The notes beneath the pieces are model-generated. The model saw nothing but the letters and a program-made list of their open reading frames with translations. It ran no database searches and was not told where the DNA came from. 64,000 bases of DNA, from NCBI GenBank assembly GCA_903834135.1, contig CAILHZ010000024.1, positions 1 to 64,000 of the forward strand, written 5' to 3'. Position 1 is the first letter of the stretch, and every line of letters begins with the position of its first letter. Below are positions 45,446-49,551 of the stretch, one piece after another. The position numbers and the translations under genes are program-made. This DNA comes from an uncultured Opitutia bacterium. Its GTDB lineage: Bacteria > Verrucomicrobiota > Verrucomicrobiia > Opitutales > Opitutaceae.

Positions 45446-48220
45446 GTGAAAAACTGCTTACTTATTTGTCTACTACTGCTTACTTATACACAGAGCACAT
45501 ACGCTCAAACAAAAGAGCAAAGCCCTCTTAATCCCGCATGGATTACTGCTGTAAAAGGTAGCCACGATCTGACTTTACCTCAGTGGGGTCCCTATACAAA
45601 ACGCTATATCGGTATATCTCATATACCTGACTCTACTTCAGGCATTCGTTTTGATCTCAGTGTTTTCCCTGGTCTTTATAACCGAAGAATTATTGTTCCC
45701 AACGTCTTATTTGCATCAGACTATCATCCCTGGGAAGCAACATCCGATTTAAGCTACTTTAGCTTTAGACACGAACTAGAATGGAAGGATCAAGTCTATG
45801 CAGATATTTCGTATTCAAAAATTACAGATACGAGCCGACTTATCCGTGCTGAATTTGTTAACAATACAGATTTACCTCAGCCACTAGAGCTGCACTTAAT
45901 CGCAAGTCTTAATTATCCTTCAATCACGCCAGCGCAGATTACTCTTCCTAAAAATGCTGTTAGACTGAGTGCATTAGACTACACGGAAATGCATTTTGGG
46001 AAACCACGTGCAACCGACAATTTAGTTCCAGACGGGAAAAAACGAGGCGAAGTCAGGTTAAGTGGATTAGTAAACGGCTCAGGACTTGGTGATGGATTCG
46101 GCCTATTAGATGGAGATACCGTATCCTATACAGTAACACTATTAGCTCCGATCTCGAATGCTTGTCTGATGGTTCGCTACAGAATGGAGCAAGGTACAGA
46201 GACAACATTTGAAATTTCTGGTCTAACAAAACAGAGCCATACCTTTAAAGGAACAGGGAACCTAAATAATGAACTTATCAATCTAGGAGATCTACCAGTT
46301 GGACCTCAAACACTCACCCTAAAAGCAAAAGCAGGTGGAGCTATAGTAATTGATGGATTCATTATTTTACCCCATTCGGAGAATAACCAAGTAAGCTACA
46401 CTACACCCACTCAGGATTTAAACCCTACTCGCGAGAGTGGCCCTATTCCTCAAAGTTTAATACTCAGCTATAAAGCAATTCCTACAGCATATGGTGTAAG
46501 CTGGACAACCTCGGATTATCAAATCAGGGAATACATCACTAAAGACCTTGATGTACTGTTGCCTTCAATGATTCAAAATCATGTGAAGGAGCATTTTGAA
46601 GGTGAGGGTCATGGGAATTATACAGAAATTTATTTAAGACCTATCATCATTACTGCACACACAAAACGTACTTTTTTTGCTGAAGTATGTAGTGGTAGTA
46701 TAGCTGAAGTTAAACGTGAGTTATCTCATTCAGCGAGATCAGTGGATGAAAATCAGATAATTTGGAACCAAAGACACAATCCACTTACTAGCAAGAAGTC
46801 CTCTAAGGCTGGTGATCCTTACCTTCAAAGCCAGACTAGGCTCAATGCTACCCTGCTTGAGAACGTAGTCTACCCTACTTACATTCAAGGCAGTTACATC
46901 AAACATAATACCCCAGGACGCTGGTGGGATAGTTTATACACCTGGGACTCAGGATTTATAGGTTTAGGTCTAGATGAGTTAGATATAAAACGAGCTTTTG
47001 AATGTCTAAATACTTACCTCAATGACCCAGGCTCTCAGTCCGCCTTTGTACACCACGGCAGTATGGTTCCTGTGCAGCACTACTTATTTTTAGATCTATG
47101 GAATAAGACTCAGTCTAAGGAACTGCTCGAATATGCTTATCCACGTTTAAAACAATATTATGAATTTTTTGTCGGCCGTATGGGCACATCCCAAATGGCA
47201 AAGTTTCATTCAGGGCTATTAAGTAGCTTTGATTATTTTTATAACTCTGGAGGTTGGGACGATTACCCACCTCAGCGCTATGCTTACGATAACCAGAATG
47301 CAGGAACCCTTGCACCTGTTATTAACACAGCTCAAGCAATCCGTATTGCAAAGATTATGCGTATGGCTGCGACTGCACTAGGTAACGCTTCAGATGTAAA
47401 TGAATACACTTCTGATATCTCAGCTTTCACATCCAGCCTGCAAAAATATTCGTGGGATGAAACCTCAGGCTACTTTAGCTATGTCGTACACGATACTAAG
47501 AATGAACCTGTTGGTTTTCTAAAATACCGTGACGAAGTTAACTACAATAAAGGCTTAGATGGTGTATATCCCCTAGTGGCAGGCGTGGGTACAGTAGCAC
47601 AGACGACACGGATGCTTTCAGCTCTAAAGTCCCCACTCCACATGTGGAGTTCAGTTGGCTTAAGTGCAGTCGATCAAGCAGCACCCTACTATAAAACGGA
47701 TGGCTATTGGAATGGAACTGTATGGATGCCTCATCAGTGGTTCTTCTGGAAATCGATGCTAGATCTAGGTGAAAGTGATTTTGCATGGGCTATAGCTAAA
47801 CGAGCCCTTGATCTCTGGAAAAAAGAAACTGACGCCACGTACTACAGCATGGAATACTTCCAAATACAGACAGGTCGTGGTGCAGGATGGCATGAATTTG
47901 GAGGCTTATCCTCACCAATCGTCAAGTGGTTTGCTACGTACTATAAACCAGGAACCTTTACCACAGGTTTTGATGTTTGGGTTGAACAACAAAACTTTAA
48001 CGCAGAAGAAACTGAATTAACTGCGAAGCTAAAACTATTCTCTAAAGATTCAAATCGAGATCAAGTAACAGTTATTGCTTGTATGAATCCGAGTAAAAAC
48101 TACAGCGTAAAATTAAATAATAAAGAGGTCACTTCTAGAAGGCGCCTACCTGGAGTTTTAGAAATCAATCTCTCGACTAAGGTCACAGAAGGTACACTTC
48201 ATATCACTGAAATACCTTAA
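45446..48220 (+). CDS. secreted GH63/trehalase-like (alpha/alpha)6 glycosidase with internal CBM-like domain
   Basis: 924 residues starting at GTG, with signal peptide KNCLLICLLLLTYTQSTYA. Residues ~30-190 are a beta-sandwich. Residues ~195-310 resemble a CBM35-type module (DGFGLLDGDTVSYTVTL ... GAIVIDGFIIL). Residues ~450-830 form the (alpha/alpha)6 barrel with GRWWDSLYTWDSGFIGLG, SSFDYFYNSGGWDDYPPQ, DGYWNGTVWMPHQWFFW and GRGAGWHEFGG, a layout like GH63/GH37 or MGH1-like hydrolases. A terminal beta-domain follows. Likely substrates are alpha-gluco or alpha-manno oligosaccharides. The family assignment is approximate. Confidence 0.75.
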   Translation: MKNCLLICLLLLTYTQSTYAQTKEQSPLNPAWITAVKGSHDLTLPQWGPYTKRYIGISHIPDSTSGIRFDLSVFPGLYNRRIIVPNVLFASDYHPWEATSDLSYFSFRHELEWKDQVYADISYSKITDTSRLIRAEFVNNTDLPQPLELHLIASLNYPSITPAQITLPKNAVRLSALDYTEMHFGKPRATDNLVPDGKKRGEVRLSGLVNGSGLGDGFGLLDGDTVSYTVTLLAPISNACLMVRYRMEQGTETTFEISGLTKQSHTFKGTGNLNNELINLGDLPVGPQTLTLKAKAGGAIVIDGFIILPHSENNQVSYTTPTQDLNPTRESGPIPQSLILSYKAIPTAYGVSWTTSDYQIREYITKDLDVLLPSMIQNHVKEHFEGEGHGNYTEIYLRPIIITAHTKRTFFAEVCSGSIAEVKRELSHSARSVDENQIIWNQRHNPLTSKKSSKAGDPYLQSQTRLNATLLENVVYPTYIQGSYIKHNTPGRWWDSLYTWDSGFIGLGLDELDIKRAFECLNTYLNDPGSQSAFVHHGSMVPVQHYLFLDLWNKTQSKELLEYAYPRLKQYYEFFVGRMGTSQMAKFHSGLLSSFDYFYNSGGWDDYPPQRYAYDNQNAGTLAPVINTAQAIRIAKIMRMAATALGNASDVNEYTSDISAFTSSLQKYSWDETSGYFSYVVHDTKNEPVGFLKYRDEVNYNKGLDGVYPLVAGVGTVAQTTRMLSALKSPLHMWSSVGLSAVDQAAPYYKTDGYWNGTVWMPHQWFFWKSMLDLGESDFAWAIAKRALDLWKKETDATYYSMEYFQIQTGRGAGWHEFGGLSSPIVKWFATYYKPGTFTTGFDVWVEQQNFNAEETELTAKLKLFSKDSNRDQVTVIACMNPSKNYSVKLNNKEVTSRRRLPGVLEINLSTKVTEGTLHITEIP

Positions 48221-48227
48221 AATTAAA

Positions 48228-48255
48228 AAGCCACCGACTTTACAATCGGTGGCTT
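48228..48255 (-). terminator. rho-independent terminator of the small membrane protein gene
   Basis: AAGCCACCGA and TCGGTGGCTT form a 10-bp GC-rich stem. On the minus strand it is followed by TTTTTAATTTT. It lies 20 bases after the stop of the 75-residue gene and just after the stop of the convergent glycosidase, which it could also serve. Confidence 0.82.
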
Positions 48256-48274
48256 GTGAGATAATACAGCTGGA

Positions 48275-48502
48275 TTATTTCTTATTAAGCACACCGTAGA
48301 GTACGGCGGCTGCAATCAATCCAACCAATCCGCTTGATCCTAAAGCGGAAATAACGCCGGTCAGATTTCCGATAACATCTATCTTCAAGAATGGTACAGG
48401 AGTACCAAACACAACCTGCAATACTACGGATGTAGCTAGAAGCGCTACTCCGAGTTCAGTGATCTTCTTAAGGAAACCAATGATCGTATCGATGATTTGC
48501 AT
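48275..48502 (-). CDS. small two-helix membrane protein, unknown function
   Basis: 75 residues. Two hydrophobic helices (about residues 16-34 and 56-71) flank a glycine/proline-containing linker (VFGTPVPFLKIDVIGNLTG), and the protein ends LNKK. No family is recognised. The gene looks real because it has its own strong terminator and a long structured upstream region. Its ATG lies 3 bases after the 3' arm of an 11-bp long-range stem, with no Shine-Dalgarno. The size and shape would fit a pore, holin-like or membrane regulatory peptide, but nothing in the sequence settles this. Confidence 0.65.
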   Translation of the reverse strand: MQIIDTIIGFLKKITELGVALLATSVVLQVVFGTPVPFLKIDVIGNLTGVISALGSSGLVGLIAAAVLYGVLNKK

Positions 48503-48505
48503 TTT

Positions 48506-48621
48506 CTTATACTGGGGTTTTGGGGTTTATAAGAACACGTTAGACGTTATGTCTAATACGTCTTACGCAGGTGTTAGATGCTGCGTATGGGCTAACGTTC
48601 AATTAATCGGCCCAGTATAAG
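48506..48621 (-). promoter_or_regulatory. candidate structured 5' leader of the small membrane gene
   Basis: Read on the minus strand, CTTATACTGGG (48621-48611) pairs perfectly with CCCAGTATAAG (48516-48506), closing a ~94-base interior and ending 3 bases before the ATG. Inside, GAACGTTAG (48600-48592) can pair with CTAACGTGTTC (48543-48533) with a small bulge, ACGCAG pairs with CTGCGT (48586-48565), and TTAGAC/GTCTAA (48556-48540) forms a hairpin that excludes the GTTAG/CTAAC pairing. Alternative, mutually exclusive stems next to a start codon are what a cis-regulatory RNA would show. Confidence 0.45.
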
Positions 48622-48639
48622 GCCTTAATCACTTAAATC

Positions 48640-48664
48640 GTTGGCAAGAAGGTATCTTGCCAAC
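48640..48664. promoter_or_regulatory. inverted-repeat operator candidate upstream of iolB
   Basis: GTTGGCAAGA and TCTTGCCAAC are perfect 10-base arms around AGGTA. The right arm overlaps the proposed -35 box of iolB, the position of a repressor operator. It is also upstream of the divergent small membrane gene, so it could control both. As RNA it would form a hairpin without a long U tract. Confidence 0.5.
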
Positions 48665-48684
48665 TTTATAAAACACTATAAAAT
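48657..48684 (+). promoter_or_regulatory. candidate sigma-70 promoter of iolB
   Basis: TTGCCA (48657-48662) and TAAAAT (48679-48684) are separated by 16 bases, each matching consensus at five of six positions, 27 bases before the ATG. The -35 box lies within the inverted repeat described at 48640-48664. Confidence 0.45.
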
Positions 48685-48711
48685 ATATAAGATAATACAT
48701 TTTCATATATA

Positions 48712-49551
48712 ATGCCTTTACACATACAAGAAACACTATCCCAACCTGAAAACCTGACGGTTCATCCGTCCAAAAACGCTAGCTTATGCTACTTTAAACA
48801 ACTGCGCTTAATTCAAAAGAGTTCAGTTACCATTAAAGAAAAAGATATAGAGTTACTCTGCGTTGTTCTCTCAGGCATAGTCACAATTCATGTAGACAAA
48901 CAAGTCTTTGAATCAGTAGGCACAAGAAAAGATATCTGGTCTGGTAAAGCAGATAGTGTTTACGCAGGGACAAATTCAACAATCACAATCACTGCAAGTT
49001 CTGAACATGCTGAAGTCGCTATTTCCGGCGCTGTATGTAAAGACAACTATCAAGCATTTCGTATAACTCCTGATGAGGTACACATGGTTGATGTCGGCTC
49101 AAACGAAACACATTCCCATCGCCGCATCTTTCACATTCTCGGACAAAATGCAGCAGGCCGTGCAGGCAATCTTCTTGTAAGTGAACTCTACGCAGATCCA
49201 GGATGTTGGTCTGGGTACCCTCCCCATAAACACGATACCGAGCGCCCTCCCCAAGAGACCGACTTCGAAGAAGTGTATCACTACCGCTTTAATCCCAGCA
49301 CAGGTTTTGGAGCACAGTTTTGCTACAACGATTCTAATCAATCTAGTGTTGTAAAAACTCAGCACGGAGACACCTTTATCGTTGAAAAAGGTTATCACCC
49401 AACAGTTACCTCCCCAGGTCATCAGAGTTATATTTTCACTATCCTTGCAGGCAGGCACCAGCGCTCGCTTATCCAATTTTTTGAACCTAAACACACCCAC
49501 CTCATGAGTGCTATACCTGGCATTCAAGCAATGAGGGATAAATTTAAGTGA
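48712..49551 (+). CDS. iolB: 5-deoxy-glucuronate isomerase family protein (IolB)
   Basis: 279-residue bicupin of the IolB/KduI group. In myo-inositol breakdown IolB converts 5-deoxy-D-glucuronate to 2-deoxy-5-keto-D-gluconate. The second cupin shows GCWSGYPPHKHDTE, then ETDFEEVYHYRFNPSTGFGAQ with the metal-binding His/Glu set, and GYHPTVTSPGHQSYIFTILAG. The length is normal for the family. No other iol gene is present. It shares a 4-base ATGA-like overlap (GTGA) with a hexuronate-type transporter and is followed by a gluconate 5-dehydrogenase-like gene, so it may act on a uronate or keto-deoxy sugar rather than in inositol catabolism. Confidence 0.87.
   Translation: MPLHIQETLSQPENLTVHPSKNASLCYFKQLRLIQKSSVTIKEKDIELLCVVLSGIVTIHVDKQVFESVGTRKDIWSGKADSVYAGTNSTITITASSEHAEVAISGAVCKDNYQAFRITPDEVHMVDVGSNETHSHRRIFHILGQNAAGRAGNLLVSELYADPGCWSGYPPHKHDTERPPQETDFEEVYHYRFNPSTGFGAQFCYNDSNQSSVVKTQHGDTFIVEKGYHPTVTSPGHQSYIFTILAGRHQRSLIQFFEPKHTHLMSAIPGIQAMRDKFK

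Follow-up and report, generated by a model that had tools for sequence, protein, structure and literature searches.

A long inverted repeat in front of an orphan gene for a putative small membrane protein in an uncultured Opitutia bacterium probably straddles a promoter

Does the DNA in front of a 75-aa orphan gene of an uncultured Opitutia bacterium encode an RNA switch? The preliminary description of this locus proposed that it does: on the minus strand, an 11-bp perfect stem spans the region upstream of the ATG and encloses two mutually exclusive pairings and a third hairpin, an organisation resembling that of a cis-regulatory RNA. We analysed the locus within its window (the whole stretch of 64,000 nucleotides) and compared it with the corresponding regions of relatives from the window's own family (f1) and from other families, among them the sister families f2 and f11. 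The letters had been read correctly, and every named motif was found at its position on the minus strand (Table 1), but the biology of the locus was most likely misread.

Table 1 Features at the small-gene locus and the evidence on which each was placed.
Feature	Position	Strand	Basis or remark
Small hydrophobic protein gene, 75 aa	48275..48502	-	ORF; ATG 48502-48500
Intrinsic-terminator-like hairpin, 12 bp, 4-nt loop, T-rich tail	48228..48255	-	Terminator prediction
11-bp perfect stem, CTTATACTGGG with CCCAGTATAAG	48621-48611 with 48516-48506	-	Sequence match
11-bp stem, 5' arm	48611..48621	-	Upstream of predicted promoter
11-bp stem, 3' arm	48506..48516	-	Overlaps C box and TTCTTATA/TATAAGAA hairpin
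Competing pairing, GAACGTTAG with CTAACGTGTTC	48600-48592 with 48543-48533	-	Sequence match
Local hairpin, TTAGAC with GTCTAA	48556-48551 with 48545-48540	-	Sequence match
Third hairpin, ACGCAG with CTGCGT	48586-48581 with 48570-48565	-	Sequence match
Promoter-like TTGAAC-N16-CATC	48577..48602	-	-35 48602-48597, -10 48580-48577; sequence conservation
Predicted 5' UTR, ~70 nt, start 5-9 nt after CATC	48503..48572	-	Inferred from promoter-like element
5'-proximal hairpin GCGT.AGACGT/ACGTCT.ACGT, alternative to TTAGAC/GTCTAA	48537..48568	-	Fold
Hairpin TTCTTATA/TATAAGAA (48535-48528 with 48511-48504), C box in 16-nt loop AACCCCAAAACCCCAG, excludes 11-bp stem	48504..48535	-	Fold
C box AACCCCAAAACCCC, shortly before ATG	48514..48527	-	Conserved ACCCC
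Palindrome, 25 bp, GTTGGCAAGA-N5-TCTTGCCAAC	48640-48664		Overlaps -35 of predicted plus-strand promoter upstream of kduI
kduI	48712-49551		Pfam KduI

The small gene and the repeats in front of it

The gene is a conserved, stand-alone unit. It is followed by a terminator-like hairpin of its own, as the preliminary description had held, and matches to its product were found in 54 of the 372 genomes sampled from the order (inferred to be Opitutales). Absence from close relatives, which had been named as counting against the proposed element, is partly observed: the gene is present in only 2 of the 13 genomes listed for its own genus, and 20 of the 252 f1 genomes carry it. The protein relatives with names come from MAGs labelled Opitutaceae, Cephaloticoccus, Opitutae or Verrucomicrobia. 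The hydropathy profile of the protein has two maxima, and the product is probably a two-helix membrane protein. It falls below every cut-off in Pfam and NCBIfam, its best match among PDB sequences has an E value of 0.46, and PHROGs gave no match. No gene is widely common among the neighbours at 14 f1 loci and the window; a shared neighbour was rejected on this basis, since only isolated pairs of loci (for example L003/L016 and L006/window) have one in common. The small gene is duplicated in many f2 and some f11 genomes, and most of those listed carry the two copies next to each other (such as G453:C7 (L047) and G321:C100 (L099)); f1 genomes gave one match each.

The 11-bp repeat is unusual locally without being rare across the window. 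A perfect inverted repeat of at least 11 bp occurs in 0.3% of 165-nt Markov sequences (local P ~0.003); the 64-kb window, however, holds seven repeats of at least 11 bp with loops of 3-130, where 20 simulations contained 2.0 on average. A single one is thus not rare at the scale of the whole window. The 165 nt from 48664 to 48500 fold with a z-score of -5.9 and beat 200 of 200 shuffles, a value owed in part to a separate 10-bp hairpin at 48664-48640; when this hairpin is excluded, the segment 48632-48500 has a z-score of -3.3.

The separate hairpin occupies the same positions as the 25-bp palindrome, for which the genome offers no other match even when 3 mismatches are allowed. Because it overlaps the predicted -35 on the kduI side and has no second copy, it was rejected as a part of the leader and is more likely an operator of the KduI/MFS/SDR operon.

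Comparison with relatives bears directly on the stem. We searched one sequence per upstream cluster for helices in the geometry of the window stem (-130 to -61 against -35 to -1), in which the window reaches 11 bp, a length equalled in 0 of 500 simulations (P = 0.008 when G-U pairs are allowed). The longest helices in the 13 other, independent f1 clusters measured 5-8 bp; the best was an 8-bp helix in L012 (P 0.034), and all remaining clusters had P values of at least 0.238. The proposal of a long-range switch element is therefore not supported for this sequence, as none of the 13 other clusters has a helix longer than 8 bp in this arrangement. None of the fetched relatives has a leader near enough to that of the window for changes in pairs to be counted. 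Among the relatives examined, the 11-bp stem is present in the window's genome only. From these comparisons, the stem most probably belongs to this one genome, arising by chance or acting at the DNA level, and is not part of an RNA switch.

The absence of a known RNA class, also claimed in the preliminary description, was confirmed. Rfam 15 gave 0 matches over the whole window, and a scan of 48200-48760 gave three matches, all far under the gathering score, so that a known Rfam class was ruled out for the window leader.

A promoter-like pair inside the stem

We next consider a sequence pair that lies between the two arms of the stem and recurs in relatives. Grouping with blastn reduced the twenty f1 upstream sequences to 14 clusters. 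The pattern TTGAACG-N15-CGTC, which was spotted by eye in the same sequences that were later used for counting, occurs with at most one mismatch in 7 of the 14 clusters, including the window, and 13 other spacings gave 0-1 each. The window version, TTGAACG-N15-CATC, is one base off CGTC. In the f1 sequences that carry the pattern, its end lies 40-74 nt from the ATG. With up to two mismatches it was found in 8 of the 14 cluster representatives, where 200 simulations gave 0.155 on average, yet the spacing signal is then weak, with 7 clusters each at spacings 18 and 22, and the count to rely on is that at one mismatch. The pattern is missing from five clusters (L015, L017, L018, L021 and L024); in L013 it differs by 2 mismatches and in L012 by 3. 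Sigma-70-like sites are absent upstream of the small gene on the minus strand between 47500 and 49500, where the sole minus-strand match is at 48288.

The pair resembles promoters of ECF sigma factors, for which AAC at -35 and CGT at -10 are given as a hallmark (PMC8103513). Many S. coelicolor sigma-E targets have AAC...CGTC and encode membrane proteins (PMC6767563). Like the promoters of S. coelicolor sigma-E and B. subtilis SigW, the window element combines an AAC -35 with a CGTC/CATC -10 at a fixed spacing in front of a membrane-protein gene. It differs from SigW promoters in the -35 box, TTGAACG as opposed to ATTGAAACCTTT (PMC8103513), and its AAC-to-CRTC spacer is 16 nt, compared with 17 in three S. 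coelicolor examples measured. By sequence, the element has the AAC -35 and the CGT-like -10 expected of the ECF type, at a spacing conserved in half of the ortholog clusters.

A further difference from ECF promoters is that no regulon was seen for the pattern in the window's own genome or in 12 genomes pooled. Its own genome contains 13 matches at this spacing against 19 for the reversed control, and 14 against 24 when the spacing is one base longer; a broad regulon in this genome was rejected on the first of these counts. The 12 pooled genomes gave 48 matches against 37 in the control, and 24 of the 30 that were inspected lie inside open frames of at least 150 codons on either strand. In four g39 genomes (G167, G168, G169 and G171), TTGAACG-N15-CGTC has 26 matches against 8 for the reversed control, an excess that may reflect composition because most of the inspected matches fall in open frames.

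The missing regulon would also fit a transcription-factor operator with the form TTGAAC-N16-CRTC in place of a sigma recognition site, as would the lack of a widely shared neighbour beside the small gene, which means that no ECF gene is found there either. We regard this as a quite improbable account, given that the AAC and CGT cores match those described for ECF promoters (PMC8103513), that the spacing is fixed and that the element lies as far from the ATG as would be expected with a short UTR.

If the ECF-sigma-type promoter at 48602-48577, which is enclosed by the drawn stem, is used, the RNA would most likely begin around 48572-48568. A transcript start within the stem was among the observations that the preliminary description itself had set against its model, and the predicted pair would place the start there. 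Three of the four drawn helices, namely the 11-bp stem, GAACGTTAG/CTAACGTGTTC and ACGCAG/CTGCGT, would then lack their 5' arms in the transcript.

The opposing model requires a leader of at least 120 nt made from a promoter further upstream, in which the 11-bp stem closes the structure and the exclusive helices switch translation of the small gene. Several observations agree with it: the local improbability of the stem, both as a repeat (P ~0.003) and in its own geometry; a fold that still scores well with the separate hairpin removed, which we also count against the promoter reading; the competition of the 3' arm with a local hairpin framing the C box; and the covarying structured leaders that precede most orthologs in two other families. 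We nevertheless consider it unlikely, because the 13 other independent f1 upstream regions lack a comparable helix, a conserved promoter-like element lies inside the stem, no sigma-70-like promoter is present upstream on the minus strand, the leader models of the sister families give no match at the window leader and the window contains seven comparable inverted repeats.

A short leader and its C-rich box

The mRNA leader predicted from the promoter-like pair would be ~70 nt long and would contain a 5'-proximal hairpin followed by a conserved C-rich box. The fold displays this C box in the loop of an 8-bp hairpin that the preliminary description did not mention (TTCTTATA/TATAAGAA), which would end one base before the ATG and shares bases with the 3' arm of the 11-bp stem. 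A 73-nt leader folds at -14.4 kcal/mol with a z-score of -4.1, and 0 of 200 shuffles were as good; a 92-nt version that reaches into the gene has a z-score of -1.8, calculated with a Markov control that differs from the control for the 73-nt fold. Among nine relatives that were folded, two form a strong hairpin at the corresponding place (L012, z -4.1; L022, z -3.2), and the others range from -1.7 to +0.6 with a weak hairpin or none; L014, L016 and L025 are almost unstructured. The TTCTTATA/TATAAGAA hairpin itself was not seen in any of the nine.

The C box is more widely conserved. Of the 14 f1 cluster representatives, 13 have ACCCC no more than 45 nt from the start, as do 12 of 14 f11 leaders and 1 of 4 leaders of family f8. 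The background is 12 of 185 genes, taken from the window's genome alone with starts picked by rule, and some of the relatives look more GC-rich. The C box was rejected both as a general start signal of the genome and as one for proteins with hydrophobic N-termini. The extended pattern AACCCCAA-N0-4-CCCC has three matches in the genome against 0 for the reversed control, located at the small gene, ahead of the start inferred for a membrane pyrophosphatase gene and within an open frame of 159 codons.

At L078:1500-1525 (G000:C16:68151), the H_PPase gene starts behind a similar box, AACCCCAAACCCC. Of 12 hppA matches in f1, the 6 close ones were inspected, that of the window's genome included, and 5 of them have an ACCCC close to the start.

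The small gene lacks a Shine-Dalgarno (SD) sequence, which is usual for this genome. SD-like motifs (-25 to -3) precede 17 of 185 genes, compared with 34 of 185 for the complementary motifs, in a set comprising the window and L081-L090. This agrees with the description of SD-scarce Verrucomicrobiota in two passages of PMC10783764, which mention no specific C-rich box.

Together, these observations suggest that the region comprises a promoter and a short C-rich leader of a stand-alone small membrane-protein gene, and not a conserved switch, a reading that we hold with somewhat better than even confidence. In it, the C box would serve as the target of the ribosome or of a protein or sRNA acting in trans. 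Half of the clusters conserve the promoter-like pair and nearly all of them the C box, whereas the stem is not conserved. Use of the promoter, the position of the transcription start and a function of the C box are what we infer from these patterns.

The same promoter might also precede an ordinary SD-less, C-rich start whose hairpins have no regulatory role. The almost unstructured leaders of L014, L016 and L025 and the generally SD-poor genome are in keeping with this, and the C box may be unspecific because the start of hppA is C-rich as well, with ACCCC in most of the close f1 genes. Weighing against it, ACCCC is rare before other genes of the genome and the extended pattern occurs only three times with an empty reversed control, and we find such a reading rather unlikely. 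The confidences that we attach to the competing readings overlap and do not sum to one.

Structured leaders in the sister families

Structured leaders with compensatory changes were found in front of the small gene in the two sister families. In f11 (L034:1285-1486, alignment A1), 12 leaders align over ~190 nt and support six helices, with 98.2% of cells paired and 12 pairs changed on both sides, 11 of which are held by helices 3, 4 and 6. On four of five measures, 0 of 500 shuffles were as good, whereas the further pair types were no different from shuffles (226/500); the tested alignment had also served to predict the structure, and the shuffles ignore relatedness. One predicted helix, CTTTG/CAAAG, pairs with the SD region and is unproven because four of its five pairs never vary. 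The count left out L036 and L039, whose upstream regions looked different, as well as L040 and L045. A covariance model of the f11 element (R2) matched L040 strongly and L045, a locus of g101, weakly (E 0.0033), and did not match L036, L039 or L093.

In f2 (L099:491-590, alignment A4), 15 leaders share a GTCAAGG...CCTTGGC hairpin in which a GATGGTGG-type bulge is conserved; 95% of cells are paired, and 4 pairs and 11 cells are changed on both sides. Percent paired, changed cells and the covariation score each beat 500 of 500 shuffles, while the number of changed pairs (98/500) and the pair types (70/500) were no different from shuffles. These 15 leaders come from 20 loci, of which L091, L093 (an f11 locus) and L110 were unmatched and L100 and L102 were left out because they look the same as L099.

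Both elements are confined to their families among the 344 genomes of the order that were searched. The f2 model (R1) matched 22 genomes, all f2, with one copy each, and every copy lies directly upstream of the small gene. R2 matched 14 genomes, 13 of them f11 (with two copies in G510) and one weak. The R2 match in G376 (E 0.0072) was treated as chance, as no convincing family gene lies beside it. The gene is present without a listed element in the f2 genomes G442 and G470 and in the f11 genomes of g101. Neither element matched the window's genome (G000); in the window itself, R1 and R2 gave E values of 0.41 or worse, all away from the small gene. Homology between the window leader and the f2 or f11 leaders was rejected in view of these chance-level matches.

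No leader reached the gathering score in Rfam scans of two sets of 15 and 14 loci sampled from the sister families; the f11 loci showed only four tRNAs, and the f2 loci gave matches below the gathering score only. Among titles and abstract openings in the literature, none was found that deals with leaders of this small gene. The f2 and f11 leaders are thus candidate structured RNAs, different from each other and supported by compensatory changes, that precede most orthologs and are absent from Rfam in the loci sampled. They resemble the riboswitches and cis-regulatory leaders of Rfam 15 in that a structured leader lies directly upstream of a single gene and, in f11, in that the SD region is predicted to be paired in one helix; they differ in that the leaders of the sampled sister loci score below the gathering threshold, and the window is unmatched. 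The idea of a cis-regulatory switch therefore survives in part, suiting the gene family better than the window sequence, since orthologs in the sister families mostly carry covarying leaders and the 11-bp stem has no counterpart of similar length in the other f1 clusters.

It is conceivable, if still on the unlikely side, that control of the small-gene family operates mainly on the RNA level, each lineage with a leader of its own, and that a longer alternative transcript in the window could use the 11-bp stem. Under such control, the lineage leaders may act through the possible SD pairing in f11, the GATGGTGG-type bulge hairpin in f2 and the C-box hairpins in the window. If this is true, several unlisted classes of cis-regulatory RNA would have arisen upstream of a single orphan gene.

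The results correct a tempting reading, in which a striking long-range stem is taken for a conserved RNA switch when it probably straddles a promoter. The notion that RNA structure controls the small gene still stands for other families, and perhaps for the pair of short hairpins in the window. The gene family itself, which occurs across an order, encodes a probable small membrane protein that is uncharacterised; most orthologs in two families have leaders, unrelated between the families, that are supported by covariation and unmatched in Rfam, and a C-rich box is shared in addition, here in an SD-poor genome.
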